A stretch of DNA of 40,223 nucleotides from Verrucomicrobium sp. BvORR106 (GTDB lineage Bacteria; Verrucomicrobiota; Verrucomicrobiia; Verrucomicrobiales; Verrucomicrobiaceae). The DNA is taken from contig NZ_BATR01000011.1 of NCBI RefSeq assembly GCF_000739655.1, positions 1 through 40,223 on the forward strand, written 5' to 3'. This document shows, one piece after another, positions 17,721 to 33,572 of this stretch (the stretch's first letter is position 1; every line of letters starts with the position of its first letter). The position numbers were made by a program, and so were the translations under genes. Below the pieces are notes generated by a model. That model was not told the origin of the DNA and made no database searches. It saw nothing but the letters and a program-made list of their open reading frames with translations.

Positions 17721-20342
17721 ATGCGATCTCGCGCATCGTCGGCCAGCCCCTCCCGCCTCACAGATTCCCGGCCTCCTTGGGCTTTGACCCTGTTGTTCTC
17801 TCTTCTTCCCGGCATGGTAGCCCTGGCCGAGCTGGACAAGAACACCAATCAACTTAGCGACGTCTGGGAACTCCAGTTCAACGCCCAAGGGCTCGCTGCG
17901 GGGCTGGACACGGACAACGACGGTTTTACCAACCTTCAGGAAGCAGCAGGCGGCACCAACCCCTTTGATGCCGCCTCCCGCCCGGCCATCGGCATCGGGG
18001 CAGGACCAGGGAGCGGAGTCGAGTTCTCGTGGCAGTCAGCACCGGGCAAGCGGTACCGGATCGATGTCAGCAACACCTTGGCGCTCAACTCGTGGCAGCC
18101 GCTGCTCACGGTGGACGGCACCGGGGAGATCTTCGACCTGCCAATCTCCACCGGGCAAGAATCCCAGTTTTTCCGGCTCAACGTCAGCGACATCGACACG
18201 GACCTGGACGGCCTGAGCGACTGGGAGGAGCGCCAACTGGGGCTGGATCCACGCAACAGCAACTCCGAGCGCCAGGCCACGTCCGACTTCAGCCGGGTGA
18301 ACACGGAATGGACAGGCACGAGTGTGGTGACCGTCGGCCTGCTGGATGGGGAGATCAATGAAGACTGGCCAGACAAGGGCTTGGTGGCGATCCGCCGGAC
18401 GGGCGGACTCAAACCCATCACGGTCAATCTCACCCTGACGGGCACCGCCACGCGCAACACCGACTACACCTGCCCGGTGATTGGCAGCCAGGTGACGATC
18501 CCCTTGGGAGTACGCGAAGTGTGGGTGGAGTTTACGCCCCTGGCGGACGCACAGACGGAGGGGGCGGAAACCATCATCCTCACGGCCACGACCGGCACTG
18601 GCTACACGCTAGGGACCACGACCGCCGCTACCGTGAATCTGGCAGATGCCAGCGCCCTGCCTAGCCCCAAGGCAGCGGCTCGATTCCTGATTCAAGCTGC
18701 TTTCGGACCAGACTCTGACAGCAATGACGCCGACACCCTCCCGGAGAATGTGGAAGACGTGATGGCGCTGGGGTTTGAGGGCTGGATCGATTCGCAGTTC
18801 GCCATGACGCCCGTGGGCAAGCTGCAACCGTATGTGGACTGGGCGGTTCCCAACGGGCAGGGACTCGCGCTGTACGGGAACTACAAGGAGTTCGCCTGGT
18901 GGGGACGCGTGATGGGCTCCCCCAAACTCAGCCCCACCGCCCCCGCGAGCCCGGCACAGCCCTACGATGCGCTGCGTCAGCGGGTGGCCTTTGCCCTGAG
19001 TGAAATCCTCGTGACCTCCGATCGGCCGGAGCAACTGGCGGTGGAGCAGCAGGGCATGGCCAACTACTACGACCTGATGGTGCAGCATGCCTTCGGCAAC
19101 TACCAGGACCTACTCTACGCTGTGGCCACCCATCCCGTCATGGGCATTTATCTGAGCCACCTGGGCAACCAGAAGGCCAACTCCGCGCTGCGCATCTACC
19201 CGGACGAGAACTTTGCCCGGGAGGTGATGCAGCTTTTCAGCATTGGCCTGTGGGAGCTGAACCAGAACGGAACCAGAAAACTCGTCAACGGCAATCCGGT
19301 TCCCACCTATAACAATGGCGACATCACGGAGCTGGCGCGGGTGTTCACCGGACTCTCCTTTGGCAACAACGCCAACTTCCAGCTCTATCCCCGCGACTTC
19401 ACGGTCCCAATGAAGATGTGGGATGCCTACCACGACTGTGATGCCAAGATCCTGCTGGGAGGATTGAATCTCCCCGTCCGGACGCCCTCCAGCGGCAACA
19501 CCGGCACCGCCGGACTGGCCGATGTGTCGGCGGCGATCCAGAATCTCTTCAACCACGCCAACGTGGGCCCGTTCATCGGGCGACAGCTCATCCAGCGACT
19601 CGTTACCTCGAACCCCAGCCCCGAGTACGTGGGCCGGGTTTCCGCCGCCTTTGCCAACAACGGCAGCGGCGTGCGGGGTGACATGAAGGCGGTGGTCAAG
19701 GCCATCCTTCTGGACCCGGAGGCACGCGATCCCGCCATGATGGAGGTGCCCACCTGGGGCCGGCTGCGAGAGCCCGTGCTGCGGGTGGTGAACATGGCCC
19801 GCGCCTTCAACGCCGCCTCCACCTCCGGTCACTATCCGCTGGACCAGTTCAGCACGGACCACATGCAGGACCCTATGAACTCCCCCAGCGTCTTCAACTT
19901 TTTCCTGCCCAACCACAGTCCACCAGGGCCGATCACGCAGGAGGGGCTGGTGGCTCCGGAGTTCCAGATCATCAACGCCAGCACCGCCATCACCGGACCC
20001 AACTACTTCTGGAACGCGATCGAGGGAAGCCTGCACCGCTATGGGAACGGGAATGCGACCTACATCGTGAAGTTGCAAAACGATCCGGAACTCGGGATGG
20101 TTGTCCCCTCGAACCTCATCAATCAGGACACGCCCTCCGGGGCGTCTGCCATAGATCCCGATCCGTTGCTGCGGCGGCTGGATCTGGCCCTGACGGGCGG
20201 CACCCTGAGCCCGAAGCAGCACCAGATCATCCGGGAGGCGATGTTGCGCATCCCCACCAGTTCATGGCAGTGGCACCGTCAGCGTCTGCGCCTGGCAATT
20301 TACCTCATCGTCACCTCATCAGACTTCAACGTGCAGCGCTGA
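17721..20342 (+). CDS. Secreted DUF1800 protein with Calx-beta and calcium-binding repeats
   Basis: 873 residues from the ATG at 17721, which opens a signal peptide (hydrophobic WALTLLFSLLPGMVALA); the reading frame continues upstream to 17604 but without an export signal. Domains in order: a type 3 thrombospondin-like calcium loop (DTDNDGFTNLQEAAGGTNPF), a beta-rich domain, a second Ca loop (DIDTDLDGLSDWEE), a Calx-beta-like repeat (about 220-310, GTATRNTDYT and EGAETIILTAT) and a C-terminal DUF1800 domain (about 320-873). Landmarks of the last are RVAFALSEILVTSD, NFAREVMQLFSIGLWELNQN, GRQLIQRLVTSNPSPEY and SPSVFNFFLPNHSPPG. It is followed 56 nt later by a DUF1501 gene, the usual partner. 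The biochemical activity of DUF1800 is unknown to me. Confidence 0.9.
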   Translation: MRSRASSASPSRLTDSRPPWALTLLFSLLPGMVALAELDKNTNQLSDVWELQFNAQGLAAGLDTDNDGFTNLQEAAGGTNPFDAASRPAIGIGAGPGSGVEFSWQSAPGKRYRIDVSNTLALNSWQPLLTVDGTGEIFDLPISTGQESQFFRLNVSDIDTDLDGLSDWEERQLGLDPRNSNSERQATSDFSRVNTEWTGTSVVTVGLLDGEINEDWPDKGLVAIRRTGGLKPITVNLTLTGTATRNTDYTCPVIGSQVTIPLGVREVWVEFTPLADAQTEGAETIILTATTGTGYTLGTTTAATVNLADASALPSPKAAARFLIQAAFGPDSDSNDADTLPENVEDVMALGFEGWIDSQFAMTPVGKLQPYVDWAVPNGQGLALYGNYKEFAWWGRVMGSPKLSPTAPASPAQPYDALRQRVAFALSEILVTSDRPEQLAVEQQGMANYYDLMVQHAFGNYQDLLYAVATHPVMGIYLSHLGNQKANSALRIYPDENFAREVMQLFSIGLWELNQNGTRKLVNGNPVPTYNNGDITELARVFTGLSFGNNANFQLYPRDFTVPMKMWDAYHDCDAKILLGGLNLPVRTPSSGNTGTAGLADVSAAIQNLFNHANVGPFIGRQLIQRLVTSNPSPEYVGRVSAAFANNGSGVRGDMKAVVKAILLDPEARDPAMMEVPTWGRLREPVLRVVNMARAFNAASTSGHYPLDQFSTDHMQDPMNSPSVFNFFLPNHSPPGPITQEGLVAPEFQIINASTAITGPNYFWNAIEGSLHRYGNGNATYIVKLQNDPELGMVVPSNLINQDTPSGASAIDPDPLLRRLDLALTGGTLSPKQHQIIREAMLRIPTSSWQWHRQRLRLAIYLIVTSSDFNVQR

Positions 20343-20398
20343 CGCACCACGTCGCCGATTCCCTCGGCCCTCTCTCACTCTTCCTCTTTCCTCCCTTC

Positions 20399-21844
20399 AT
20401 GAAGCCTGCCCCCCCGATGAACCGACGCCAGTTTCTGGGCCAGGCCAGTTGCGCCGGCGTGAGTTCCATCCCGCTGCTAAACACGCTCTTGAACCTGCGG
20501 CTCGCAGAGGGCATCGCCGAGGCCTCATCTCCCCAGCCCGGCAGCTACCGTGCGCTGGTGTGCCTCTTCCTGGCAGGCGGCAACGACTCGTTCAACATGC
20601 TGGTGCCACGCGAACCCGGCGCGTATGCCACGTATCAATCCTCACGGTCCAACCTGGCTTTGACGGACGCACAGCTGATCAACATCCAGCCCGAGGGGCT
20701 GCCGCCCTTTGCCGTCCACGGTGGCATGCCAGAGGTGGCCACGTTGTTCAACAACGGCAACGCCGCCTTTGTGGCGAATGTAGGCACACTCATCGAACCC
20801 GTATTCACGAAGGCCGAGGTGGAACAGAGCCAGAAGCGGCTGCCGCTGGGCCTCTACTCCCACTCAGACCAGATCGAGCAGTGGCAGACCGGCGTGCCGC
20901 ACTCCCGCTCCGGCATCGGCTGGGGCGGGCGACTGGCGGACTTGATTCAGCACATCAACTCCGTGCCTACCGTGCCCATGCAGATCAGCCTGGATGGGGG
21001 CAACGTGTGGCAGACGGGGGAGACGGTGGCGGAATACGCGATCACGCCCCAAGGGGCGGTGAACCTGAGCAACTACAACACCGCCTACGAAGCGAACCAA
21101 GGCGTGCGCAACGCTCTGAGCGCCGCCGTAGACAGCCAGCTGGCGCAAGACTACTCCAACCTGCTGGCCCAGACGTTCAACTCCCGGAAGAAGCAGGCGA
21201 TGGATGCCTACGACATCTTTGCCACGGCCACCGCGCCAGCCCTCCCTGCCGGAGTCACCTTTCCCAGCACCTACGTAGGTCAGCGGCTCGCCATGGTCGC
21301 CAAGGCCATTCAGGGACACAACCACGCCCGGCTTCAGGCCAAGCGACAGACCTTCTTCATCCAATGGGGAGGCTGGGACCATCACAGCGAAGTCCTCGCT
21401 GGTCAGGCATCCATGCTGCCTCAGGTGAGCGCCGCCATTGGTGCCTTCTACAGTGCTCTGGTGGCCATGGGCATGCAAGACAAGGTCACTCTCTTCACGG
21501 CTTCAGATTTCGGCCGCACCCTCACCTCCAACAGCCGGGGCTCAGACCACGCCTGGGGCAGCAATCAACTCATCGTAGGCGGCGACGTAGTGGGCAAGCG
21601 CATCTATGGCCAGTACCCTTCTCTGGTGGTGAATCCCGATTACGGCCCCACCGTTAACGATCTCGACACCGGCCGCGGCCGGTTCATCCCCACCACCAGC
21701 TGCGACTCCCTCTTCGCCGAACTCGCCCTCTGGCTCGGTGCCAACCGCAGCGACCTCCCCCTGATCCTCCCGAACATCGGGAACTTTTACAACACATCCC
21801 AATCGGCCTGGCCGATTGGGATGTTCAAACCTGACCTGGGGTAG
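20399..21844 (+). CDS. DUF1501 protein with Tat-like signal
   Basis: 481 residues from the ATG at 20399 (a second ATG at 20417 is possible); the frame continues upstream into the DUF1800 gene but is not needed. The N-terminus MNRRQFLGQASCAGV is a twin-arginine-like signal, so it is likely exported folded, perhaps with a metal cofactor. Family landmarks: LVCLFLAGGNDSFNMLVPR, SHSDQIEQWQTG, FFIQWGGWDHHSEVL, FTASDFGRTLTSNSRGSDHA and, at the end, LPNIGNFY. DUF1501 proteins are distantly related to the alkaline phosphatase/sulfatase superfamily; the paired His in WDHH and the Asp-rich motifs suit metal binding, but activity here is unproven. It is coupled to the DUF1800 gene upstream and ends in a striking hairpin-forming stretch. 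Confidence 0.92.
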   Translation: MKPAPPMNRRQFLGQASCAGVSSIPLLNTLLNLRLAEGIAEASSPQPGSYRALVCLFLAGGNDSFNMLVPREPGAYATYQSSRSNLALTDAQLINIQPEGLPPFAVHGGMPEVATLFNNGNAAFVANVGTLIEPVFTKAEVEQSQKRLPLGLYSHSDQIEQWQTGVPHSRSGIGWGGRLADLIQHINSVPTVPMQISLDGGNVWQTGETVAEYAITPQGAVNLSNYNTAYEANQGVRNALSAAVDSQLAQDYSNLLAQTFNSRKKQAMDAYDIFATATAPALPAGVTFPSTYVGQRLAMVAKAIQGHNHARLQAKRQTFFIQWGGWDHHSEVLAGQASMLPQVSAAIGAFYSALVAMGMQDKVTLFTASDFGRTLTSNSRGSDHAWGSNQLIVGGDVVGKRIYGQYPSLVVNPDYGPTVNDLDTGRGRFIPTTSCDSLFAELALWLGANRSDLPLILPNIGNFYNTSQSAWPIGMFKPDLG

Positions 21845-21865
21845 GAAAGTCCGAGGTATTCCTCG
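21794..21865. terminator. Long hairpin plus small hairpin at the convergent gene end
   Basis: ACATCCCAATCGGC-CTG-GCCGATTGGGATGT (21794-21824) is a perfect 14-bp stem with a 3-nt loop inside the last codons of the DUF1501 gene. A second stem, CGAGG-TATT-CCTCG (21852-21865), follows after the stop codon and before the convergent PEP-CTERM gene ends. They may act as a bidirectional terminator, but no T-tract follows either one. Confidence 0.45.
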
Positions 21866-21871
21866 AGTCAC

Positions 21872-22552
21872 TTATGGGTGACGATTGCGACGCCTTCTAC
21901 GGCCCAAAACAGCAAACATGGCCCCTGCCATGGCTAATACTGACACGCCCGGTTCGGGAACAGCAGCAACGGTACTATACGCTTGAGTTGGTCCGAACGA
22001 ATCTCCGATGTCGTACGAATAGGTACCGAACTGGCCCCAAAGGAGCTGCGAAGCAGTATTGACTTCATCAGTCCGACTCAGGCTCACAGAACCTGAAAAC
22101 AACGGATTGTCCTGCAGAAACGTCAGCGCACTCTTATAGATCAGCAACTCTGTAGATGCAGACAAGGTGGATGCGTTGCCGACGACCAAATACACGGATT
22201 CATTTATGAATGAACTGCCAGCGTTAATCGCCGCGCTGGAATCATACTGAAATGATCCATCGATGGGGAACGGGGTTCCTGCAGAAGTTGAAGTTCCAAA
22301 CAATACGAAATCCGTCTTTGCCGTAGCGAAGGTGGTGGCGTTCAACGACTGAAGCTGCGCATCGGTGAGCGTGTCGAAATACCCCACCCCAATAAAGCTA
22401 TTGGACGAAGTGAGCCTGACACCAGCAGATGTCGACACCATGTTCGATGCAGCACTCGGCGCATTGACGTTACCGAGACTGATTGTCGCCGCATTAGCTC
22501 CGAGAACGCCTGCAAAGAGCACACTTGCGACTACACTAATAGACTTATGCAT
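21872..22552 (-). CDS. PEP-CTERM sorting-domain protein
   Basis: 226 residues. A signal peptide (KSISVVASVLFAGVLGANAA) is followed by a Ser/Thr/Ala-rich secreted body of beta-strand character with no recognised catalytic motif. The C-terminus has the PEP-CTERM arrangement: VPEPG, a hydrophobic stretch (VSVLAMAGAMFAVLG), then RRRRRNRH. Such proteins are processed by an exosortase and released to, or held at, the outer surface, often with exopolysaccharide production. It starts 10 nt after the TIGR02597-like gene on the same strand, so the two are probably co-transcribed. Its base composition is noticeably more AT-rich than the flanking DUF1800/DUF1501 genes. No exosortase gene is in the window. 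Confidence 0.88.
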   Translation of the reverse strand: MHKSISVVASVLFAGVLGANAATISLGNVNAPSAASNMVSTSAGVRLTSSNSFIGVGYFDTLTDAQLQSLNATTFATAKTDFVLFGTSTSAGTPFPIDGSFQYDSSAAINAGSSFINESVYLVVGNASTLSASTELLIYKSALTFLQDNPLFSGSVSLSRTDEVNTASQLLWGQFGTYSYDIGDSFGPTQAYSTVAAVPEPGVSVLAMAGAMFAVLGRRRRRNRHP

Positions 22553-22562
22553 AGAAATTGGA

Positions 22563-23600
22563 TTAAAGGCCCCCGTAAATAGCCGGATCTGGAGAGATGG
22601 TGACGTTCAGTTCGGTGCCACGCCTCTCGATGATAAACCCCGATGTGAGCGTTGTCCCGCTCTTGTCAACATTCCCGGTGCTGGTCCCCTTCCAGCCTTC
22701 AGTTGTAAATGGGGGAGCGGCAGAAGCGTAGTAGTACTTATCATACCCTCCAGTTGTGTTGGGAAGCCAAACGATGTCTGCGGTGGAAGCATTTCCTGGC
22801 CTTAACGTGGATGCCAGCCCGGAATTCCCCAATGTGGCGCCAACCGGGAAAATCCGGTTAACATAGTTGAAACCTTGGCTTACTCCGATCTTTGCCTGGA
22901 TCTTTTTCACATCGCCCAAACAACCCAACTTGAGATCAGTGGTTCCTCGGCGTTCAATAAAGATCCCTTCAGAATGGAATATCGGGGTCGCCGATGCGTC
23001 GGCATTGCCAGTACTCGTCGTTTTCCAGCCTGCCGTAGTAAACGGAGGAGCGGCAGTTGCATAGTAAACTTTGATGAAGCCGCCTTGCACAGGGATCCAG
23101 ATCACGTCTGCGGTATTTACGTTCCCGCTCTTCAGCCCCACTTCCGTGCTTCCTACATCAGCACCTTTTGCCGAGTCATTAGCAGCGCCAAACAAACCAG
23201 CCACACTGTAAGCTGCACGAACGGAGTAACTGGAGCCTTGCACAACAAAGCTCGACAAATCATCCTCGGTTGTCAAAGACGTAGCGGTGAACGAAGTAAC
23301 ACGACTTGACGCGCCTGCTCCGTTGCCGTTGGTAATTTCGACCCAAAGCCCCGTGGCTCCAGCCAAGACAGTCGTGAATGTAGCTCCATCGTCGACAAGC
23401 GTATTCCCGGATGCCGACTCCAATGCACCAGCAGTCAGCACCGGCCGAAGGAAATTGACCCCAACCAAGTTAAACTGTCCTGCCTTAATCGGAATGGATT
23501 GAAAACCAACCGGGCCCGTAGAAACCTCTGCCGCCGTGGAGATCCCTGGTATTGAGACGGCGGCTAAAAGAGCTGCCAGGAGGAAGGCTGTTGGTTTCAT
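22563..23600 (-). CDS. TIGR02597-like secreted protein with internal duplication
   Basis: 345 residues with a signal peptide ending near STAAEV. The body resembles the verrucomicrobial TIGR02597 family, with VGFQSIPIKAGQFNLVGVNF near the start. Two copies of a roughly 70-residue repeat are obvious: about 157-230 and 267-337. Both contain NTADVIW/STADIVW, YYATAAPPFTTAGWK/YYASAAPPFTTEGWK, TSTGN and FIERRGT/IIERRGT. Function is unknown; an extracellular structural or binding role is likely. It is the first gene of a two-gene unit with the PEP-CTERM gene and has a good promoter just upstream. The sequence before the ATG is pyrimidine-rich, with no Shine-Dalgarno. Confidence 0.82.
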   Translation of the reverse strand: MKPTAFLLAALLAAVSIPGISTAAEVSTGPVGFQSIPIKAGQFNLVGVNFLRPVLTAGALESASGNTLVDDGATFTTVLAGATGLWVEITNGNGAGASSRVTSFTATSLTTEDDLSSFVVQGSSYSVRAAYSVAGLFGAANDSAKGADVGSTEVGLKSGNVNTADVIWIPVQGGFIKVYYATAAPPFTTAGWKTTSTGNADASATPIFHSEGIFIERRGTTDLKLGCLGDVKKIQAKIGVSQGFNYVNRIFPVGATLGNSGLASTLRPGNASTADIVWLPNTTGGYDKYYYASAAPPFTTEGWKGTSTGNVDKSGTTLTSGFIIERRGTELNVTISPDPAIYGGL

Positions 23601-23627
23601 AGAAGGACGAGGGGGAATTTGCGAGGG

Positions 23628-23656
23628 GCTATAGCACTATTGCTTCTGAATCTCAA
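23628..23656 (-). promoter_or_regulatory. Sigma70-like promoter for the TIGR02597/PEP-CTERM pair
   Basis: On the minus strand TTGAGA (complement of 23651-23656) and TATAGC (complement of 23628-23633) are separated by exactly 17 nt. Transcription would begin near 23621, leaving a leader of about 20 nt before the ATG at 23600. The region 23601-23863 is AT-rich with poly-A/T runs that may further help promoter activity. Confidence 0.5.
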
Positions 23657-23863: not shown

Positions 23864-26710
23864 CTAGGGAATGACCAGCCGGACGCGGAGGAATCGACGT
23901 GAGGAAACGGAGGTAGAGACGCTGTCCCTGACCGTGACGGTGTCGAACCCCGAGCCTGGGACAGCGCTGACCACGGCAGGCGCCAACAGGCCGTCCCCGG
24001 AGGTCCAGACAGGCACCCAGCCTGTCGGGGCCAAGTTGTCACTGCCCTCAACTATATAGGTCAGGCCTGAGATCTGGTGGCGGACGGGAAAAGTCAGCTG
24101 GAGGAAGGTGCCACCCCCGCTACTGGCGGTGCTCGCCTCCGGACGCTCAGTGGCAAGGGACTTGGCAGGATCACCCATGAAAGCGAACTCCTCCAACGCG
24201 GACAGCCCATCTTTATCAAGATCGCCTGTGACCAGCGCGTGCGGACCTGAGAGTGACTGGCGGGACGCCCACTCCGCGAAGGTCTGGGTCACATTGACGT
24301 TCAAGGTATGGGCGGTGGCCTGCCCGTTACGGTCCACCGCACTGACCCGGACGCTGGTGACACCGGGCCCCACAGGTTCGATCTTGAGGGTAGTGCCATT
24401 CTCCACCGACGCCACGGCGACGGCACTGTTGGGCGGCGTGATGATTTCATACACGAGGGCGGGTACCGGTTCCGCGGAGGTGATCTTGATGAGCTTGCTC
24501 AGATCGAGCGAGTGCGGCCCCACCGGAGGGGCGGTAGTGAGCGGCAGATTGTAAAAAGCTGACGAGAAGACATCCTCGGCCCCCGGCCCATACTGAACGG
24601 GAATGTCGTAGTCTCCTACTGGGGCGAGGGCCATCTGCGTGAGGACGGGATAGCTGGCCAGCCCCACCCGGGCGAAGACGGTAAACCCGCCATTCTGAAG
24701 ATCCAGGTTGCCCTGGTTGTCGTTCATGTTGAAGAAGAACTGATTGGTGGCGCTATGCGGGAGGTCCTCCTGCTTGGCCATGGCGACGGTACCTACCGTG
24801 TTCTGCAGACCCGGCTCATTGGGAACTGGCGCATAGGTTGGAATGGGCTCGAACCAGTTCGAGCCATTCACCTTGTAGCCACCGCCCTGGAAAACGAACT
24901 GGTCTTCCGACCAGTGGAACAACGCCCCATCAAACCGGCCTGAGTCCACATAGTGCAGGAAGTTCGCCACCGTCTGGGGCGTGGCCGTCTGGTGGAGCAA
25001 CAGATCCAGGTCGCCCAGGTTGGTGTGCAGACGGAGGACAGATTCTGAGTCAGGATCCGAAAAGTAGTTCTGGAGAGGGACCTGGACGGGTGAACTCAAG
25101 GTGAGGGTCTGGTCCGGCACTGGCACGGGCATACGAGGTGCCGCAGGCTGATGGATGGCCCGAAGAGTCATGGATGTCTGGTGCGATGCCCCTCCCTGAA
25201 ACGTGGCAGAGATGGGGAAGGTGTACACGCCCGGTGTCGTGATCGTCCCAGTCAAAGGACCACCTGGGGGATAAAAAGACACCCCTGCAGGCAAACCGCT
25301 GGCAGACATGCTGGTTCGCGAGGTCTGGCTTAGCGTGGTCACCGGCAGGGTGAAGGGAACGTTGACGAAAACCTGGGCGGCCAACGGACTATTAAATCCA
25401 GGTGGGGTTGTGACAGTCGCCACCGGAGTGAACGCCGTCTCGAGGTTTCCCAGCACGGATCGCAACCGCAACTCATAGGTCGTGCCAGGCCTGAAACCCG
25501 GAAGATCGGTATAGGATGTCTGATAGGGAGAGGTGAGATCCCTGCCGGTGATATACTTCCGGGTCAAAAACGGACCAGGGAGCGCGGCCTCGCGGACCTG
25601 CAACTCATACGCCTCCTCTACTTTTGAGGTGTCTTTCCAGTTGAGGGTGATGTGATAGGGGCTGGCCGTGGCCGTGGCACTGAAATTCGTCGGCGCATAG
25701 AAGGGGGTGGTCACTGACCCGATGGACGACCACGGAGAGTAGGTGCGGGGGCCATTCTGCGTTTCCAGGAAGAAGGAGCGAACGCGGAAATCCAAGGCGG
25801 TGCCAGGGGGCACGCTGTCTGGAAAGGTGAGAGTGTCCAGGCCGGTCACGATATCGACAGGATCCGCCATCGTGGCAAAGGCGCTGAACTGGTTCATTCC
25901 CGCGTAGCTGATCTCCACCTCATAACCGACCGCATTGAAGCTATTGTCCCGTAGCGTCAGAGAAACTGCGGTTTCATCCAGGGCAGTGACCGCAAGATTC
26001 GACGGTGCCACCAAGCCCGGTATCACATCGGTGAGCACCGTATTGGAATACGCCGTGACCGCCGACGGACTGGCCGCGGCCCCCTGATAGGCGCGCATGC
26101 GCACCTCGTAGCGCACTCCGGGCTTCACGATCGGCAGCCACATCCCATCGCTATTGGCCACGCGGGCGGGCGTCACGGGCAGGAAGTTCCCCACTGACTG
26201 TTCTCGCATTTCCACCAGGTAACCCGCCTCTGCATACGAGTTGTCTGACCAGATCATATAAACGGCACCATCCGACTGAAGATAGGTGCCCTTGATTGAT
26301 GGAGCGCCGAATGGCGTCGTGACGATGGTGATGGGTTGCCCCGAATAAGCAGAAACGCCGCTACCGTCGTACGAGCAGACGTCGATCACATACGTGAATC
26401 CCAGCCCCACCGTGACGTTGGACACCAGAGCCCCGGTGGTGCCGGAGAAAGATCCTGCCCCAATGTCAAACGTCTGCTGGGCTCCGCCGTTGACGGTGTA
26501 TCGAAAACGAAAGCCCGTCTCACCCACCGAATTGTCGTTCCAATAAAGGGTGATCTCGGCCTGATTGGTAGAAACCTGCTGAACCACCACGCCATGAAGA
26601 AGCGATGGCGCGGCAGGAGCAGCCGTGGCCGTCCCGATGAGACTGAAAACGCACAGGACGGCGAGAGCACAACAGATGCGGTGGAAGCCCACCACGGGCG
26701 TGTGAAACAT
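23864..26710 (-). CDS. Secreted fibronectin III/cyclophilin multidomain protein
   Basis: 948 residues from the ATG at 26710, which begins a signal peptide (hydrophobic ICCALAVLCVFSLIGTATAA); the frame extends upstream to 26845 without an export signal. Four fibronectin type III-like domains (about 31-430) each show a W/L-x-DNS-x-x-E-x-GY strand and a PGxxYxxRxR strand. An Ig/cadherin-like domain (about 431-520) is followed by a cyclophilin-type peptidyl-prolyl isomerase domain (about 540-720) with TVANFLHYVDSGRFDGALFH, GTVAMA and TNQFFFNMND. The position of the catalytic Arg in FHR is Trp (FHW), so isomerase activity may be lost. A Big-like region and a C-terminal module with DLDKDGLSALEEFAF and RRFLRVRL, typical of exported verrucomicrobial proteins, complete it. 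It is transcribed divergently from the lectin-like/DUF1800 gene. Confidence 0.85.
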   Translation of the reverse strand: MFHTPVVGFHRICCALAVLCVFSLIGTATAAPAAPSLLHGVVVQQVSTNQAEITLYWNDNSVGETGFRFRYTVNGGAQQTFDIGAGSFSGTTGALVSNVTVGLGFTYVIDVCSYDGSGVSAYSGQPITIVTTPFGAPSIKGTYLQSDGAVYMIWSDNSYAEAGYLVEMREQSVGNFLPVTPARVANSDGMWLPIVKPGVRYEVRMRAYQGAAASPSAVTAYSNTVLTDVIPGLVAPSNLAVTALDETAVSLTLRDNSFNAVGYEVEISYAGMNQFSAFATMADPVDIVTGLDTLTFPDSVPPGTALDFRVRSFFLETQNGPRTYSPWSSIGSVTTPFYAPTNFSATATASPYHITLNWKDTSKVEEAYELQVREAALPGPFLTRKYITGRDLTSPYQTSYTDLPGFRPGTTYELRLRSVLGNLETAFTPVATVTTPPGFNSPLAAQVFVNVPFTLPVTTLSQTSRTSMSASGLPAGVSFYPPGGPLTGTITTPGVYTFPISATFQGGASHQTSMTLRAIHQPAAPRMPVPVPDQTLTLSSPVQVPLQNYFSDPDSESVLRLHTNLGDLDLLLHQTATPQTVANFLHYVDSGRFDGALFHWSEDQFVFQGGGYKVNGSNWFEPIPTYAPVPNEPGLQNTVGTVAMAKQEDLPHSATNQFFFNMNDNQGNLDLQNGGFTVFARVGLASYPVLTQMALAPVGDYDIPVQYGPGAEDVFSSAFYNLPLTTAPPVGPHSLDLSKLIKITSAEPVPALVYEIITPPNSAVAVASVENGTTLKIEPVGPGVTSVRVSAVDRNGQATAHTLNVNVTQTFAEWASRQSLSGPHALVTGDLDKDGLSALEEFAFMGDPAKSLATERPEASTASSGGGTFLQLTFPVRHQISGLTYIVEGSDNLAPTGWVPVWTSGDGLLAPAVVSAVPGSGFDTVTVRDSVSTSVSSRRFLRVRLVIP

Positions 26711-26786
26711 GAAGAGTAAAGAGGGGGTTGAGGGAATACCCTTACTGATGACTCCCCCTGTTTCTACGGATTTTATAAGCAAAAAT

Positions 26787-26870
26787 ATTACTCCCCACGC
26801 ATCGAGTGGGTAACAACCCCTCAATTGAGGACTTCCACCCGTCACTAGGAAGGGAGTAATGTTGGCGCGG
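26787..26870. promoter_or_regulatory. Nested dyads in the divergent promoter region
   Basis: ATTACTCCC (26787-26795) and its reverse complement GGGAGTAAT (26862-26870) surround a perfect 12-bp palindrome CCTCAATTGAGG (26819-26830) and a CCCAC/GTGGG stem (26794-26810). They lie between the divergent starts at 26710 and 26960 and could be operators controlling both genes. The region is otherwise gene-free and shorter than 300 nt. Confidence 0.35.
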
Positions 26871-26941: not shown

Positions 26942-26959
26942 CTCCGACTTCCAAAACAT

Positions 26960-27748
26960 ATGCGAATGCCTGCCCTGTTGGTGCTGGTGACTTGGGCGGC
27001 CATTCTGCCCCTGCCTGCGCTCCACTCTCAGTTCACGACACTTTGGTCCATCGGTGTGGAAAACGACGATCCCCAGGAACTGGGGGGCGAGACGTGGCCC
27101 CAAAACAACCTGCCTGGCAACGCGACGGTACGCGACAATGACTACTACTTTGCCGGGACCTACGGCATCGGCACCGTGGCCATCACAGAACCCGCCACGC
27201 AATTCGAGCGGGTGCTGAGCACGACCAACCACACCCAGCGCATCCATTTCAATCTGAATGCCGGGCAGGCCACCCCCACGGCGCGGATCCGCCTGCACTT
27301 CAACCAGGTGTGGGGAGGTTGGTGGCAGGCAGCGACCAGCACCCAAGGGCCTGGCTACGGCAATCACTCCCTGCAGGTGAAACTCAATGGCTCGCTCATC
27401 GGCACGAAGCTCTTCACAACCCGGGGCGAAATGCTGGTGGAGGCCAATGCTGGCACCTTCACTCCGGTGGCGGGGGAAAACGTGCTGGAAATCACGCGCG
27501 TCACCGCCAGCCCCTCCAGCCCGGACGGCTCCATTCAGTTCGACTACCTGCAGCTCGAACTGCACCCCACCGCGCTACAAGATGCGGATGGCGACGGCCT
27601 GCCGCGCTGGTGGGAGGAGGACCACGGATTCGACGACCAGAACGCGGCCGACGCGGGGTATGATCCTGACCAGGACCTCCTCACCAACTCGGAGGAGTTC
27701 GCCCGCAAGACACTCCCCGAAACCCCGACACGGACGGTGACGGTCTGA
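26960..27748 (+). CDS. N-terminal part of a frameshifted DUF1800 protein (signal, lectin-like domain)
   Basis: 262 residues ending at a TGA at 27746-27748. A signal peptide (ALLVLVTWAAILPLPALHS) precedes a beta-sandwich domain (about 25-205) with features of polysaccharide-lyase-associated or carbohydrate-binding domains: LWSIGVENDDPQE, RIHFNLNAG and a C-terminal DYLQLEL strand. A calcium-binding repeat DADGDGLPRWWEE and DPDQDLLTNSEEFARK follow. The last residues (TLPETPTRTVTV) make no sense for this protein, while the +2 frame at the same place reads PRNPDTDGDGLKDGYETHTG and joins the next gene. The natural product is therefore very likely a single protein with the following CDS, broken by a missing base around 27707-27717. 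Confidence 0.8.
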   Translation: MRMPALLVLVTWAAILPLPALHSQFTTLWSIGVENDDPQELGGETWPQNNLPGNATVRDNDYYFAGTYGIGTVAITEPATQFERVLSTTNHTQRIHFNLNAGQATPTARIRLHFNQVWGGWWQAATSTQGPGYGNHSLQVKLNGSLIGTKLFTTRGEMLVEANAGTFTPVAGENVLEITRVTASPSSPDGSIQFDYLQLELHPTALQDADGDGLPRWWEEDHGFDDQNAADAGYDPDQDLLTNSEEFARKTLPETPTRTVTV

Positions 27749-27780
27749 AGGACGGATACGAGACCCATACCGGCACCTAT

Positions 27781-30700
27781 GTGGATGCCACACACACCGG
27801 CACCGACCCCAACAATCCCGACACAGACGGCGACTCGCTCCTGGATGGCGAGGAAGTTTCCTTAAACCCCCGCCCGAATCCCCTCCTGGCCGACACCGAC
27901 AATGACGGTGCCCCAGATGCGTGGGAGGTCCGCACCGGGTTCAACCCGACGAGCAGCAGCAGCAAGCCACCTGCGTTCCCCGGTGCCATCGGCATCAAGT
28001 TTGTGTCCGATCTCACCCCGGAGCACGGCCTGCTGCCCAAGGAGGTGACTGGCATCACCCCCCAGATGAACTGGAACAGTGCGATGCCTCTGAGCACGTG
28101 GAATGATCCTGCGGGATCCGAGGTGGACATCGTGACCCCTCTCGCAGGCAAGGTGGTGTACGCCACGGGAGTGGACTCTGGAGTGAAGTTCTCCTGGACC
28201 AACCCCGGGTACACTTGGGGCACTGGCAACGGGGGCGGCCCGACGCAGAAGCTCTTTGACGGCATGCTTTCTGTCGCAGGCGATTATGCCGCCTCCCTCA
28301 GTGTGACCCAGGTGCCCTATGCTACCTATGATGTCATTGCCTATGTGGGGTCGCAGTCGGAGGCCTCAGTGGGCTACATCCGGCTCAACAACAACACCGC
28401 CTCAGACCGGAGATTCAGCAGTGCCAGCTCCCGGCCGGAGAAGACTTTCATCGAGCAGGGCATCTACAATGCGACCTATCCCCGGCGTGGGAACACCATT
28501 CGCTTCCGCAACGTGACGGGCAGTTCCTTCAGCCTGCAACTGTACCGGACCAGCTACTACAACGTGGGCCTGCACGGGATCCAGATCGTGAATGCTGCGG
28601 CAGACAGTGACACTGACGGGCTGCCTGACCACTGGGAATACCGCTACGGATTCAATCCCGGCTCCAATGCTGATGCCACGCTGGACGCCGACAACGACGG
28701 GCTGAACAACGTGGGTGAAAAGAACCGCGGCACCGATCCCCGTGTGGCCGATACCGATGGTGATGGCTTGAGTGATCTGGTGGAGACTGGAACCGGGACC
28801 TGGGTCAGCGCCAGCAACACGGGTTCCAACCCGCTGCTACAGGATACCGACAGTGATGGCCTGACGGACGGGGCCGAGGTGGCCACCCTGCCGCTGCCGA
28901 CCAACCCCAACAATGCCGACACCGATGGCGACGGCAGGAGTGACCTCCTCGAATCCACGGAACGTACCAATCCCCTGGTCGCAGAGTCCACCACCTTCAG
29001 CATGCCGGTGGTGACCACATCCCCCCGCACCTTCGACTGGACAGTGGAGAACGTGCAGCTCGTCTGGGACCACTCCCGCAACCACTCGGGCTTCAACGAC
29101 GACCTCTTTGCCCTCTCCATCACCAATGCGGCGCGGCCGCGTGAGGATGCTCTGTACTTTGCCCTGCCGGTGCGCAATGGCAATGTCACCTACTATTTCC
29201 ACACGAACTACTGGGGCGCATTCAGCCACCCGGACAATGACACCGCTCATGTCTGGGACAGCGACTGGTCCTCCACGCCCGCCGACCTGAAGATGGCCAT
29301 GGGCTTCAGCGGACGCGGTAAAGTGGACATCTCTGACCGGCTGCGGTTCCGGGTATCGGGCGCCAGCACGGGTTCCCAGACGAGCTGGAACGTGACCTTC
29401 GCCATCATCAATCAGCGCACCGGATCGACCGTGATGAGCCGAACCTACAACGGATGCGCCCTGGCCACCAGCGCGCATAACAACACGGCCACCTGGCAGA
29501 CTCATGATGACCCGGCAGTGGTGAACCGCTTCAACTTCCGGGTACCGGATGCGGTGACCGTTTATTTTCAGACGACGCCGCTGGAGAACACCACCGCCTT
29601 CAGCGCCTACAAAGACACGGACAACGACGGGATGCCGGACGTCTGGGAGACCCAGTACGGGCTGAACATCAACAGCGTGGCAGATGCCATCCTGGACCCC
29701 GACAATGACGGCTTGAAGAACGTGGATGAGTACACCGCCGGCACCTCCCCGCTGCAGCGGGACACGGACGGCGATGGCGCTCCAGATGGGGTGGAAGTCT
29801 CCACCCGGAGCAATCCCCTGCTGGCCACCAGCCTGCCGCCGCTCTACCGCGGCACGGGGACCTCAGGTGAGGACCTCAACGGCAATGGGCTGGCAGATGC
29901 CTGGGAACTCTGGGCCGGAAGCTTCAATCTGGCCGCCAACGTGGACACCGATGGCGACGGCATGAGCAATGCAGCGGAGGCCGCAGCGGGCACAGACCCC
30001 TTTGACCCCACCGACCGTTTGTGGTCGGCCATTGTCGCTCAAGGAAACAACATCGTGGTGCGCTGGCCCGCACTGGTGCAGAAGCAGCAGGCCGTGTGGC
30101 AGAGCGGCAACCTTACCGACTGGAGCCCCGCCACGGGCACGCCTGTCATCACAGATGGCGTGAACCAGCAGACCTTCACCAATGTGCTGACCGGCCCCTC
30201 CCGGACGTTTTACAGAGTGCGGGTGAATGACCTGGACCGGGATGGCGATGGCGTGAGCGACTGGACGGAGAAGAACGTGCTGGGCACGGATCCTCTGGTG
30301 GCCAACAGCTCCCGCAGCGCCACCAGTGTGGACGCCAATCAGGACGGCGTGGTGGACACAACTTACAGCGGTGACTATGTGTCTCTGGTGGAGCACCTTC
30401 AGGGCACCACTGCAGCAGGCGGATTCCCCGGCTCCGGCAGCGGGGGCAGTGGCGGCACCGGCATCGCCAGCGGCAGCACGGCCATTGCCCGCACCCAGGC
30501 AGCGCGGTTCCTCACCCAGTCCACCTTTGGACCGACGGTGGAAGACATCCAGACGGTGCAGGAGCAGGGCTACGCTGGCTGGATCACCCAGCAGGCCGCC
30601 CTGCCTCCCACGCTGCACTCGCCCTACATCCAAGGGATCTATAATGACATCCGCGGGCAGCGTACCGGCCAGGGGTACAGCTATGGCGGCAGTGACAATG

Positions 30701-32073
30701 AGTACTTCCTCTTCGGCAACAACATGATGACGGCCTTTGCCCGGGGCGCGGTGAACGGGCAGGACCAGCTCCGGCAGCGCATGGCCTTCGCCCTTAGCCA
30801 GATCCTCGTGGCCTCACGCCGCGATTCAGCCCTGGAGAACAAGGCGCTCGGCATGGCCAGCTTCTACGACATCTTCGTCCGGAACGGTCTTGGAAACTAC
30901 CTCGACGTCCTGCGTGAAGTGACCTTCCACCCCATCATGGGGCGGTACCTCAGCCATGTGGGCAACCAGAAGGCGCATCCGGAGATCAACCAGTATCCGG
31001 ATGAGAACTACGCTCGCGAGGTGATGCAGCTCTTCACGATCGGACTCTGGGAGCTGAACCCCGATGGCACCCGCAAGCTGGACAGCGGCGGGCACCCCAT
31101 CCCCACCTACACCAACACCGAGATCACCCAGGTGGCCCGCGTGCTCACCGGGCTCTGGTACGGCGGACAGGAGTGGGGCAACGGCGGCTGGGATGATGCG
31201 GCCTTCTCCACCCCCTTGACGATGCATTCCGATCGTCATGACTTTGGGAAGAAGACCCTGCTGCGAGGCTTTGTGGTGCCATCACGCGCCCCGTCCACGG
31301 CCAATGCATTGCGGGACATTGACGACCTTATCCGCATGCTCTTCGAGCATCCCAACACGGGCGTCTTTGTGGGCCGTCAGCTGATCCAGTTCTTCGTCAC
31401 AGACAACCCGAGCCCGGCGTATGTGCAGCGGGTATCCTCCGTCTTTGCCAACAACGGCCAAGGCGTGCGCGGAGACCTGCTGGCAGTGATCAAGGCCATC
31501 CTGCTGGATGAAGAAGCGCGCGACACACGCTACTCCTCCGGAGCATCCTTCGGTCGCCTCAAGGAGCCGGTCATTCGCGCCATGTCCATCGGCCGGGCCT
31601 TTGGTTTGAAGGGGGAGAAAAACCTCCTGTGGTGGGACTGGAATGACTTCTTTAATGTGAGCCGCCAGGAGCCAACCTTCTCCCCCAGCGTGTTCAACTT
31701 CTACCGTCCGGACTACAAGGCCCCGGGCCTGCTGACGCAGAACAGCCTGTCCTCCCCGGTCTTCCAGATCACGGATAGTTTCTCCTCGATCTCCTTCCCC
31801 AATCGGCTCTGGGATCTGGTGCAGTATGGCTACCGTCTATGGAGTGTGTACCAGTTCCCCCTGGACATGGAACGGGAGAAGGCGCTGGCTGCCACGCCGG
31901 AACTGCTGGTGGACCACCTCAATACGATCCTCTGCGCAGGCAACATGGAGGTGGGTACCCGCACCCACATCCTGAATGCGATCAATCAACTGCCGGCCAA
32001 TGAACTGGCGATCCGCGCCCAGGTGGCCGTCTATCTGGCCATCGTCTCCCCGGAAGGGGCCGTGATCCGGTGA
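27781..32073 (+). CDS. Main part of a frameshifted DUF1800 protein with many calcium-binding repeats
   Basis: 1430 residues from a GTG that is only the first possible start; the frame is meaningful from about 27715, so this is the continuation of the preceding CDS, not an independent gene. Many type 3 thrombospondin-like loops (e.g. NPDTDGDSLLDGEE, DADNDGLNNVGE, DTDGDGMSNAAEAAAG) alternate with beta-rich domains, one at about 65-270 resembling a carbohydrate-binding sandwich. From about 905 the DUF1800 domain begins: AARFLTQSTFGPTVEDIQ, RMAFALSQILVASRRD, NYAREVMQLFTIGLWELNPD, GRQLIQFFVTDNPSPAY and SPSVFNFYRPDYKAPG. The stop overlaps a GTG of the DUF1501 frame. With one base restored the whole gene (26960-32073) encodes about 1704 residues. 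It is paralogous to the gene at 17721. Confidence 0.88.
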   Translation: MDATHTGTDPNNPDTDGDSLLDGEEVSLNPRPNPLLADTDNDGAPDAWEVRTGFNPTSSSSKPPAFPGAIGIKFVSDLTPEHGLLPKEVTGITPQMNWNSAMPLSTWNDPAGSEVDIVTPLAGKVVYATGVDSGVKFSWTNPGYTWGTGNGGGPTQKLFDGMLSVAGDYAASLSVTQVPYATYDVIAYVGSQSEASVGYIRLNNNTASDRRFSSASSRPEKTFIEQGIYNATYPRRGNTIRFRNVTGSSFSLQLYRTSYYNVGLHGIQIVNAAADSDTDGLPDHWEYRYGFNPGSNADATLDADNDGLNNVGEKNRGTDPRVADTDGDGLSDLVETGTGTWVSASNTGSNPLLQDTDSDGLTDGAEVATLPLPTNPNNADTDGDGRSDLLESTERTNPLVAESTTFSMPVVTTSPRTFDWTVENVQLVWDHSRNHSGFNDDLFALSITNAARPREDALYFALPVRNGNVTYYFHTNYWGAFSHPDNDTAHVWDSDWSSTPADLKMAMGFSGRGKVDISDRLRFRVSGASTGSQTSWNVTFAIINQRTGSTVMSRTYNGCALATSAHNNTATWQTHDDPAVVNRFNFRVPDAVTVYFQTTPLENTTAFSAYKDTDNDGMPDVWETQYGLNINSVADAILDPDNDGLKNVDEYTAGTSPLQRDTDGDGAPDGVEVSTRSNPLLATSLPPLYRGTGTSGEDLNGNGLADAWELWAGSFNLAANVDTDGDGMSNAAEAAAGTDPFDPTDRLWSAIVAQGNNIVVRWPALVQKQQAVWQSGNLTDWSPATGTPVITDGVNQQTFTNVLTGPSRTFYRVRVNDLDRDGDGVSDWTEKNVLGTDPLVANSSRSATSVDANQDGVVDTTYSGDYVSLVEHLQGTTAAGGFPGSGSGGSGGTGIASGSTAIARTQAARFLTQSTFGPTVEDIQTVQEQGYAGWITQQAALPPTLHSPYIQGIYNDIRGQRTGQGYSYGGSDNEYFLFGNNMMTAFARGAVNGQDQLRQRMAFALSQILVASRRDSALENKALGMASFYDIFVRNGLGNYLDVLREVTFHPIMGRYLSHVGNQKAHPEINQYPDENYAREVMQLFTIGLWELNPDGTRKLDSGGHPIPTYTNTEITQVARVLTGLWYGGQEWGNGGWDDAAFSTPLTMHSDRHDFGKKTLLRGFVVPSRAPSTANALRDIDDLIRMLFEHPNTGVFVGRQLIQFFVTDNPSPAYVQRVSSVFANNGQGVRGDLLAVIKAILLDEEARDTRYSSGASFGRLKEPVIRAMSIGRAFGLKGEKNLLWWDWNDFFNVSRQEPTFSPSVFNFYRPDYKAPGLLTQNSLSSPVFQITDSFSSISFPNRLWDLVQYGYRLWSVYQFPLDMEREKALAATPELLVDHLNTILCAGNMEVGTRTHILNAINQLPANELAIRAQVAVYLAIVSPEGAVIR

Positions 32074-32114
32074 CCCCAAGTGCTCCCCAACTTCAACGCG
32101 ACGCTGTTCTCCGT

Positions 32115-33572
32115 ATGAAAGACCAACGGTCCCCTTTTCACCAGCCCAACCGCCGGCAGTTCCTGGGGCAGTCCGCTTGCGCGGCCTTGGGGAATATCTC
32201 GATTCTCAACACCCTGCTGAATCTGAAGCTGGCCGGATCCGCTGCCGCCCAGTCTGCCCCCACGGACTACCGCACCCTGGTGTGTGTTTTCCTTCATGGA
32301 GGCAATGATTCCTTCAACTGGCTGGTGCCCCGAGATGCCGCCCGGCATGCTGTGTACACGACCACGCGGGACAATCTGGCCCTGCCTCTGAACACCCTGC
32401 GTTCCCTGAACCAGTCTGGAGGCGACGGGCAGGAGTACGGGGTGCATCCGAACTGCCCGGGGTTGCAGGAAATGTTCAACGGCATGAGCGGCGACACCAC
32501 AAAACGCCGGGCCGCCTGGATCTCCAATGTGGGCACGCTGATCGCCCCCGTGACCAAGGCGCAGTACCTGGCGGAAACCGTCGCCCTGCCCCGGGCGCTC
32601 TTCTCCCACAGCGACCAGATCGACCAGTGGCAGACCTCCGTGCCCCAGGGGATGACGCAGCTGAGCGGCTGGGGCGGCCGTGCCGCAGACGTGCTGCACG
32701 CCTCCGCCAACGCGACGAATTTTTCCATGAACCTTTCCCTGGCGGGGAACAATCTCCTCCAGGTGGGCAACCAGACAAGCCAGTTCGTGGTCACCGATCA
32801 GGGAGCGCTGACCTTCACCGGCTCCTACATCGGGGACCCGAGCCACTTCCACCGCATCAAGAACGCTGCGCACCGCAACATCCTGGCCCAGCAGTATGCC
32901 AACATGGTGCAGGAGTCCTTCTCCGGCCTCACGCGGAGCAGCATCGAGCTGCAGGAGTTCTTCCTGCAGCAGTTCAGCTCCTACAACGACAGTGCCGTGG
33001 CCAGCTTGTTTCCGAATTCCTACATGGGCTCCCAGTTCCGGGCCGCGGCCAAGATGATCGGCCTGCGCCAGGCACTGGGGCTGCACCGGCAGACGCTTTT
33101 CATCGGCTTCGGCGGGTGGGATCACCACACGGAGTTGCTGGACTCTCAGGCCCCGATGCTCTCCGTGCTGGACGCCGGGCTGGCGGGCTTTCAGCGGGCG
33201 CTGGATGCCATGGGCATGCAGGACAGTGTCATCACCTTCACGTCCTCCGACTTCAGCCGCACACTGCGCAGCAACGGCCGCGGTACCGACCACGCCTGGG
33301 GGGCAAACGCCCTCGTGATGGGTGGCCCCGTGCAGGGCGGCAGGATCTACGGCACCTTCCCGAATCTGGCGATCGACAGCAACAACGACACCGGCTATGG
33401 CGGGCGGATGATCCCCACCACATCCGTGGACCAGTTCGTGGGTGAGATGCTGCGGTGGTTCGGGGTGAAGGCCTCCGACATGCCCTATGTCCTGCCCAAT
33501 CTGGGCAACTTCTACAACGCCAGCTCCTCCACGCTGCCAATTGGTTTCCTGAAACCCGGCACCTGGAGCTGA
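32115..33572 (+). CDS. DUF1501 protein with Tat-like signal, second copy
   Basis: 485 residues from the ATG at 32115; a GTG at 32070 overlapping the DUF1800 stop would give 500. The ATG places the twin-arginine-like NRRQFLGQSACAA near the N-terminus, as in the paralog at 20399. Landmarks are shared with that copy: LVCVFLHGGNDSFNWLVPR, SHSDQIDQWQTS, FIGFGGWDHHTELL, FTSSDFSRTLRSNGRGTDHA and LPNLGNFYNAS. The coupling with DUF1800 suggests the two are exported and act as a pair. The reaction is unknown. It is followed within 18 nt by a small membrane-anchored protein. Confidence 0.92.
   Translation: MKDQRSPFHQPNRRQFLGQSACAALGNISILNTLLNLKLAGSAAAQSAPTDYRTLVCVFLHGGNDSFNWLVPRDAARHAVYTTTRDNLALPLNTLRSLNQSGGDGQEYGVHPNCPGLQEMFNGMSGDTTKRRAAWISNVGTLIAPVTKAQYLAETVALPRALFSHSDQIDQWQTSVPQGMTQLSGWGGRAADVLHASANATNFSMNLSLAGNNLLQVGNQTSQFVVTDQGALTFTGSYIGDPSHFHRIKNAAHRNILAQQYANMVQESFSGLTRSSIELQEFFLQQFSSYNDSAVASLFPNSYMGSQFRAAAKMIGLRQALGLHRQTLFIGFGGWDHHTELLDSQAPMLSVLDAGLAGFQRALDAMGMQDSVITFTSSDFSRTLRSNGRGTDHAWGANALVMGGPVQGGRIYGTFPNLAIDSNNDTGYGGRMIPTTSVDQFVGEMLRWFGVKASDMPYVLPNLGNFYNASSSTLPIGFLKPGTWS

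Follow-up and report, generated by a model that had tools for sequence, protein, structure and literature searches.

Background

Adjacent genes of the DUF1800 and DUF1501 families form a gene pair that is already known and uncharacterised, and two new members lie in a 40,223-nucleotide stretch of DNA from Verrucomicrobium sp. BvORR106 (contig C199, bases 1-40223), hereafter called the window. The host draft genome comprises 8.69 Mb in 209 contigs. The nearest named relatives of the window, among the best 80 of 575 matches, are from Verrucomicrobiaceae and from metagenome-assembled genomes of Prosthecobacter. We take the family COG5267, which appears in earlier work, to be DUF1800.

The closest described system is a DUF1800-DUF1501 operon found beside bacterial chitin synthases in Enterobacteriales and in Agrobacterium vitis. 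The relevant passages of that report describe joint transfer of the genes, note a twin-arginine translocation (Tat) motif on DUF1501, propose a functional link and call the domains ones of unknown function (PMC5122149). The window resembles this operon in the adjacency of both families and in the twin-arginine motif of DUF1501. However, no chitin synthase is encoded among the window open reading frames (ORFs) scanned, the window DUF1800 proteins have long N-termini with TSP3 and CBM-like modules, and the pairs of Verrucomicrobiota can be accompanied by a GspG-like gene. Excerpts from other sources describe DUF1501 as uncharacterised (PMC4452313), equate it with COG4102 (PMC6329079), place COG4102 and COG5267 among the abundant SAR202 families of a correlation matrix (PMC6946804), and list Akkermansia muciniphila as lacking a DUF1501 module (PMC4960237). 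Another study reports that PSCyt genes adjoin families of obscure role whose functions are not known, and suggests a link to carbohydrates (PMC5615132).

We consider it somewhat probable that each window pair is a copy of an ancient, co-inherited unit in which a secreted DUF1501 hydrolase is held at the cell surface by its DUF1800 partner.

Conserved pairing and co-evolution of the two families

The sequence-only reading of the window had proposed two DUF1800-DUF1501 pairs with the same gene order on the same strand, and Pfam scores well above the cut-offs bear this out. For pairs 1 and 2 respectively, DUF1800 (PF08811) is matched with 244.9 and 272.3 bits (cut-off 26.1; model positions 2-418 and 1-416 of 419) and DUF1501 (PF07394) with 105.4 and 122.8 bits (cut-off 27; model positions 2-344 and 2-343 of 390).

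The same arrangement recurs widely. DUF1800 is matched in 49 of 57 genomes (the host and 56 relatives), and a DUF1501 gene lies downstream on the same strand in 180 of 189 DUF1800 matches at loci L045-L224 and in the window, where overlapping loci and split copies are counted. The relatives' loci were drawn among the matches listed, and the sample is biased toward strong matches. Four of the nine unpaired matches (L067, L068, L083 and L218) have less than 1.4 kb of sequence left. The distance from the DUF1800 stop codon to the twin-arginine codon of DUF1501 has a median of 44 bases (n=166).

Removal of duplicates leaves 177 unique pairs. Those from the named loci, which are the best 80 of 575 confirmed matches (586 pattern matches), number 75 and come from Pseudomonadota (32), Bacteroidota (19) and Verrucomicrobiota (19), with one pair each from Lentisphaerota, Acidobacteriota, Chlorobiota, Campylobacterota and an unassigned bacterium. 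Both families are also present in Caulobacter vibrioides, one of 14 control genomes (a presence call only), and their function may be tested there. A conserved third partner across phyla was considered and rejected: at the 80 named loci wide recurrence is confined to DUF1800 and DUF1501, and the next most frequent gene, the GspG-like one, occurs at 6 loci.

We refer to three clades (A, B and C), with the window pairs in clade A. These labels derive from the coverage of hidden Markov models and not from a supported tree. A split DUF1800 copy on contig C200 of the host genome contributes one row to clade A and one to clade C with the same DUF1501, and L078 is labelled clade C although its DUF1501 leader resembles that of clade B.

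DUF1800 and DUF1501 partners co-evolve. The sequence-only reading had suggested family trees as a check for unrelated histories, and the histories prove to be closely matched. In FastTree phylogenies computed without support values for 174 pairs (leaving aside a short row and the two that stem from the split C200 copy), the tree distances of the two families correlate with r = 0.943, compared with a maximum of 0.16 over 1,000 permutations. The two trees have 95 of 171 splits in common, whereas 200 label shuffles give a mean of 0.2 and a maximum of 2. A comparison of paralogues was meant to separate co-evolution from shared organismal history. In comparisons between 23 genomes with at least two pairs, DUF1800 and DUF1501 name the same nearest copy in 1,538 of 1,804 cases (624 expected), and the within-genome paralogue distances of the two families correlate at 0.93 (n=148).

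The DUF1501 family does not need DUF1800, given that three relatives (G026, G027 and G056) yield 72-77 DUF1501 matches yet no DUF1800 above the cut-off. Six small genomes of genus g12 from the same order (G036, G043, G047, G049, G052 and G055) have no match to either family.

Predicted structures and conserved residues

The AlphaFold2 model of DUF1501 #1 (predicted local distance difference test score, pLDDT, 90.7; 75 sequences) has the core fold of the alkaline phosphatase superfamily. The model aligns with snake-venom phosphodiesterase (7cba) at a VIA Z of 18.7 over 246 residues and 3.4 Å, closely followed by NPPs and PafA, and Z is at least 8 for 488 of 999 chains. The top Foldseek match is a choline sulfatase (E 8e-6). 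Likeness to the NPP phosphodiesterases, PafA and choline sulfatase thus extends from the fold (VIA Z 16-19 in the rows shown) to the order and conservation of Asp, Ser and His motifs. DUF1501 differs from these enzymes in its low sequence identity (10-15% in the rows shown) and in being encoded with a helical partner.

The DUF1501 proteins linked to DUF1800 are nearly uniform at these motifs when residues are counted by alignment column. The Asp of GGxD is present in 173 of 174 proteins, the Ser and His of SH in 172 and 174, each residue of DxH in all 174, and each residue of DH in 172, with two gaps. Judged by their order, the Asp, Ser-His, DxH and DH motifs may be equivalent to the known metal ligands and nucleophile of the superfamily.

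The model of the DUF1800 #1 domain (pLDDT 91.5; predicted template modelling score 0.94) is helical save for short strands. Foldseek found no solved relative of this model at E <=0.001 (best 0.84) and the best VIA Z is 3.0, a null that does not show a new fold because VIA re-ranks only the chains returned by Foldseek. Two troponin chains at E 0.4-0.5 in a sequence search were taken as chance and troponin was rejected as a relative.

Ahead of this domain, DUF1800 proteins are variable. In clade A the open frame preceding the domain ranges from 33 to 1,730 amino acids (aa), whereas the DUF1501 domain is steady at 351-529 aa. Pfam identifies TSP3 repeats in both window DUF1800 genes. The contrast drawn by the sequence-only reading between a lectin-like and a Calx-beta N-terminus holds in part. 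The N-termini do differ, and the head of DUF1800 #2 has a CBM-like domain at 25.0 bits, just under the cut-off of 27, that was not found in #1; the model takes its name from domain III of polysaccharide lyase family 4. The Calx-beta assignment of #1 was made by eye only, and Pfam lists no Calx-beta in either window DUF1800 at E up to 5, with filters that drop most weak matches.

A possible relation to the PSCyt2-PSD1 and PSD2-DUF1552 pairs

DUF1501 is a large and unexplained expansion in this group of bacteria, with 60 matches in the host genome in addition to the 72-77 matches in each of the three relatives noted above. Six of the 60 follow DUF1800 genes. In 47, a PSD1 (DUF1553) heme-protein gene lies within 6 kb on the same strand, with DUF1501 downstream in 42 of these 47. 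Of the seven matches with neither partner, three are small fragments, a further three lie less than 1 kb from the first base of their contig, and one is of neither kind. The frequency of PSD1 neighbours led us to examine whether DUF1800 is related to the PSCyt2-PSD1 (DUF1549-DUF1553) proteins, whose pairs with DUF1501 in Planctomycetes and Verrucomicrobia also usually have the partner upstream.

Profile comparisons with hhalign suggest a C-terminal core common to PSCyt2-PSD1 and to DUF1800 clades B and C. The alignment of 36 clade B/C proteins with 48 PSCyt2-PSD1 proteins has a P of 4.1e-5 and a score of 47.5 over 70 columns, compared with a mean of 15.4 (sd 3.2, maximum 26.8) for 60 column shuffles and 16.8 for a reversal. 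C-terminal halves alone give P 2.5e-7, and N-terminal parts (P 0.008-0.05) are only suggestive. Taken singly, clade B gives P 3.7e-5 and clade C 7e-5. When all clades are compared with 20 PSCyt2-PSD1 proteins, P is 0.0013 (0.0011 in the reverse direction), and the DUF1800 alignment A3 alone gives 0.06. Global alignment is unstable, as its P values diverge by clade (B/C 2.4e-6, B 0.4, C 0.65, A 0.02).

Pfam reflects the same likeness weakly and in both directions. Among 33 clade B/C DUF1800 proteins, the commonest second families are PSD2 (5 proteins, best E 0.007) and PSD1 (4 proteins, best E 0.009), and the two match at one position in L100, where both were seen. Conversely, three PSCyt2-PSD1 proteins out of 20 match DUF1800 (best E 7e-4), as many as match DUF4214 (best 0.024).

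The two kinds of partner differ in that the heme motif CxxCH is invariant in the PSCyt2-PSD1 alignment, whereas no Cys is found among the conserved columns of the DUF1800 alignments (A3 and A6). The motifs of DUF1501 differ with the partner as well. In 28 canonical DUF1501 proteins of the host genome, 27 of which have a PSD1 neighbour, the GGxD/SH motifs of the DUF1800-linked class are replaced by GGPS/NH. The GGxD Asp position is never Asp (Ser in 25, others in 3), and the Ser position of SH is Asn in 21 and Ser in one. The adjoining His, both DxH residues, an Arg and the last His are kept in all 28 and the last Asp in 23. Adjacent Asp or Glu residues of the canonical class could take over, which would make this a changed site and not a dead one.

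A third kind of pair joins PSD2 (DUF1585) proteins to the HXXSHH family DUF1552. The host genome has 17 DUF1552 matches, with the PSD2 protein upstream in 11, downstream in three and absent in three. A set of 13 DUF1552 proteins picked by the HXXSHH motif aligns with clade B/C DUF1501 at P 1.5e-6 over 196 columns (reversed control 0.043) and with clade A at 8e-4. However, DUF1800 is linked only weakly to the PSD2 proteins, with P values of 0.002-0.005 (clades B and B/C) and 0.044 (clade A).

On this basis we offer the tentative proposal, which we rate a little below even, that DUF1800-DUF1501, PSCyt2-PSD1-DUF1501 and PSCyt3/PSD2-DUF1552 branched from a single ancient arrangement of two genes. 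The exported helical partners would have a C-terminal core in common and would usually be encoded upstream of an enzyme of the alkaline phosphatase fold whose motif residues switch with the partner: the full GGxD, SH set with heme-free DUF1800 and the altered GGPS, NH set with heme-bearing PSCyt2. The clade that includes the window argues against the proposal. Clade A gives P 0.098 against PSD1, and no PSD family appears among the 25 of 27 families shown (77 members). Clade A is tied to PSD1 only by way of clades B/C, to which it is clearly homologous (P 1.6e-46).

If the proposal is true, the massively expanded and unexplained planctomycete cytochrome genes would be the redox-linked relatives of a hydrolase unit that is simpler and occurs across bacteria. 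Likewise, if most DUF1501 proteins have a helical partner and the active site follows partner type, the heme-free pair would be a model for the function of the whole set. Our full-text searches of open-licence papers turned up no mention of either a DUF1800-PSD1 relation or a motif switch linked to the partner. Together these two are the most interesting lead from this work, one that calls for structures and biochemistry.

Export signals

Both window DUF1501 proteins carry the twin-arginine motif NRRQFLGQ. The NCBI TAT model scores 13.5 bits on DUF1501 #1 (cut-off 16.7) and has no match on #2. The starts of DUF1800 #1 and of the 262-aa ORF that heads #2 were judged Sec-like by eye. A pattern of RR followed by a variable residue and a hydrophobic one precedes the DUF1501 domain in 137 of 139 clade A proteins, in all 21 of clade C and in seven of 17 of clade B. 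The two exceptions in clade A are L195, with KR, and L125, which nevertheless shows RR; in clade B, RR is seen by eye in L075 and L080, which the pattern missed. A second Tat pattern is present in 153 of 177 DUF1501 proteins and in 57 of 1,076 other ORFs of at least 300 aa, for which the searched regions differ somewhat.

Clade B departs from this arrangement. Its DUF1800 proteins carry a Tat pattern in 16 of 17 cases, and in the seventeenth by eye, mostly followed by a lipobox-like Cys, and no leader was seen in DUF1501 proteins such as those of L051, L054, L065, L072, L077 and L079. If these starts are right, the leaderless proteins could exit only together with DUF1800, and the signals hint that in clade B the pair might be exported as a complex. 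A rule that exactly one partner carries the Tat signal was ruled out, given that some clade B pairs have RR in both. Thus, the view that DUF1501 uses Tat and DUF1800 uses Sec, with separate export, suits the window pairs and clade A but is not general.

The GspG-like third gene

A gene for a small GspG-like protein follows DUF1501 in 47 of the 177 rows (46 distinct genes, one split copy being counted twice), including window pair 2 but not pair 1. Its tail resembles the major pseudopilin GspG, and T2SSG is the commonest Pfam match of the family (8 of 25 members, best E 1.1e-4). The window protein itself has no T2SSG (PF08334) match and belongs to no Pfam family. Four of the five matches to the third gene in the host genome are beside DUF1800-DUF1501 pairs.

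Age of the two window pairs

The window pairs are ancient paralogues, situated close together in this genus, and not one unit split by an insertion. They are only 43-45% identical to each other, and the tree distance between them is 2.0 for both DUF1800 and DUF1501, whereas in the DUF1800 tree the eleven nearest rows of each window copy lie at 0.04-0.74. Comparison with relatives from other genera gives identities of 62-69% within orthologue groups and 38-44% across them. Six other-genus genomes (G011, G012, G013, G018, G024 and G025) hold relatives of both DUF1800 genes, all confirmed by identity (63-67% within groups and 38-43% across them), and the two orthologues are on separate contigs in all six. 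The contigs imply a separation of at least about 60 kb in five genomes; in G018 one contig is just 9 kb, so the genes could be close. The different contigs and the higher identity within than across groups are what mark the pairs as old paralogues.

Synteny was compared on both sides of the second DUF1800 gene in two congeners. In G001 the window is collinear on either side, and the fn3/cyclophilin protein is present at 85% identity. In G003 the flanks are collinear and about 280 bases stand in place of the 3-kb fn3/cyclophilin region. This minus-strand gene, missing from one of two congeners, is the only part of the intervening block seen to be absent, which leaves little of the inserted block put forward by the sequence-only reading. 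A recent duplication followed by insertion is rejected on the strength of tree distances, identities and synteny. The motifs cited as common to both pairs do occur in the translations, but they are family-wide: DUF1800 #1 and #2 are 43% identical, and #1 is also 36-69% identical to 75 others from the named loci.

Tandem pairs arise in other combinations too. In G011 (L062 5065-17310), an orthologue of pair 1 stands immediately before a second pair, a distant one with a DUF1800 of 2,164 aa. A DUF1501 is lacking near the second DUF1800 of G024. At L060 (10771-16017), an apparently intact 1,748-aa DUF1800 with a domain 67% identical to that of #2 has no DUF1501 in its vicinity.

Proposed function and alternative explanations

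In the reading that we favour, DUF1501 would be a secreted metallo-hydrolase of the alkaline phosphatase superfamily, with the chemistry suggested by its predicted fold and conserved motif residues. It probably acquires its metal and folds in the cytoplasm before export, which the signal motifs suggest to be by Tat, and its substrate is probably a phosphate or sulfate ester. DUF1800 would be an exported, mostly helical protein that probably binds DUF1501 directly, in keeping with their recurrent pairing and order and their co-evolution. Its N-terminal part, which is long and variable and includes TSP3, CBM-like and other modules, would hold the enzyme and position it either on a glycan or at the cell surface. 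In Verrucomicrobiota, a GspG-like third protein, presumably anchored in the membrane, may often join the pair.

Several observations weigh against this reading. The link is not absolute, as four DUF1800 genes (L060, L109, which is the same as locus L149, L113 and L168) have at least 2.6 kb of room and no DUF1501. Shared organismal history can explain much of the tree correlation, which the paralogue comparison reduces and does not remove. No ORF holding both domains was found among the ORFs scanned, and the third His ligand of the two-metal site was not located. In addition, the reading makes no use of a published table in which DUF1800 and DUF1501 appear with other proteins tied to type VI secretion system orphan genes of a Xanthomonas strain (PMC6653060).

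In an alternative reading, DUF1800 is an exported maturation or folding helper of DUF1501, or a pathway neighbour that acts on the same substrate, and no stable complex is formed. Adjacent and co-evolving genes are compatible with a functional link without contact, and the different signals of clade A partners (Sec-like and Tat-like) make assembly in the cytoplasm unlikely. However, the long N-terminal parts of DUF1800 fit anchoring better, and the leaderless DUF1501 proteins of clade B would require DUF1800 for export. We regard this alternative as unlikely, though more probable than the two that follow. That DUF1501 is instead a non-catalytic binding protein that keeps the fold is improbable. 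The loss of both the Asp and, in all but one protein, the Ser from the canonical class makes loss of activity within the family plausible, but the near-invariance of these residues in the DUF1800-linked class is hard to explain without catalysis or metal binding. More improbable still is the model of the sequence-only reading, in which a duplicated pair was split by an insertion and each pair is aimed at a different polysaccharide through its N-terminal module. The gene order is as described, and the N-termini do differ, with a CBM-like domain found on #2 alone. Nevertheless, duplication plus insertion is largely refuted by the low identity between the pairs, each of which is nearer to pairs of other genera, by the collinearity with two congeners and by the separate contigs of the orthologues. 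In addition, the nine window ORFs scanned with Pfam include no glycoside hydrolase or lyase catalytic domain.

Features of the window

The coordinates of the pairs and of the genes near them are collected in Table 1. For DUF1800 #1, an open frame with ATG reaches back to 17604. The ORF of DUF1501 #1 was called from 20264, and its likely start is 20399 or 20417.

Table 1. Genes of the two DUF1800-DUF1501 pairs and their surroundings (window coordinates).
Feature	Coordinates	Strand	Characteristics
DUF1800 #1	17721..20342	+	Sec-like start (by eye), TSP3 repeats, DUF1800 domain ~18684-20339
DUF1501 #1	20399..21844	+	Tat-like signal MNRRQFLGQ, predicted alkaline-phosphatase-superfamily domain
Small protein, PEP-CTERM-like tail	21872..22552	-	Below curated cut-offs
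TIGR02597-like protein	22563..23600	-	Below cut-off; recurs beside some DUF1800 genes of the group
fn3 / He_PIG / cyclophilin protein	23864..26845	-	Pfam
DUF1800 #2, N-terminal ORF (262 aa)	26960..27748	+	Signal-peptide-like start, CBM-like domain, TSP3-like repeats begin (by eye); frame breaks at end
DUF1800 #2, C-terminal ORF	27781..32073	+	TSP3 repeats, DUF1800 domain ~30505-32055
DUF1501 #2	32070..33572	+	Tat-like signal PNRRQFLGQ, DUF1501 domain; alternative start 32115
Third gene	33591..34265	+	One apparent membrane segment (by eye), GspG-like (type II secretion system) tail RTPLYIH..IRSAGPD..TEDD

DUF1800 #2 had been described as one gene from 26960, but it spans two ORFs in different frames, with the change at 27700-27781 within the stretch of TSP3 repeats. 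In the DUF1800 tree, the 13 closest relatives of this gene are each encoded in a single open frame (1,657-1,716 aa), which leaves a sequencing error or a recent break as the cause of the split. Another DUF1800 of the host genome (C200, locus L066 14960-18612) is likewise in two frames, and its counterpart in G001 is a single 1,218-aa frame.

The three minus-strand genes between the pairs are located as the sequence-only reading had placed them, and the fn3/cyclophilin assignment is solid (fn3 41.5 bits, cyclophilin 88.2 bits in Pfam). The other two labels do not reach their cut-offs: the PEP-CTERM tail is slightly under (18.4 bits, cut-off 20.7) and the TIGR02597 match is far under (18.6 bits, cut-off 50). 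When the window protein was used as a query, a TIGR02597-like relative was found upstream of a clade A DUF1800 in eight of the 177 unique pairs, 134 of which had at least 1.2 kb of upstream sequence. Six are divergent within 111 bases, one is on the same strand, and one is the window case, where the gene is 4 kb from the DUF1800 and the fn3/cyclophilin gene lies in between. Of four copies in the host genome, two adjoin pairs; the other two are on C19, a contig in which no DUF1800 match was seen.

Downstream of pair 2, the protein encoded at 34262-35167 has no Pfam match; its paralogues, 54-58% identical, lie near the C200 DUF1800 cluster in the same genome and in congeners. A large minus-strand ORF at 35534-38617 (1,027 aa) has no listed Pfam match at E up to 1. 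Just 5' of pair 1, a cluster at 4693-17086 includes genes for a MoxR ATPase, a trypsin/PDZ protease and proteins with a BatA-type N-terminal domain.

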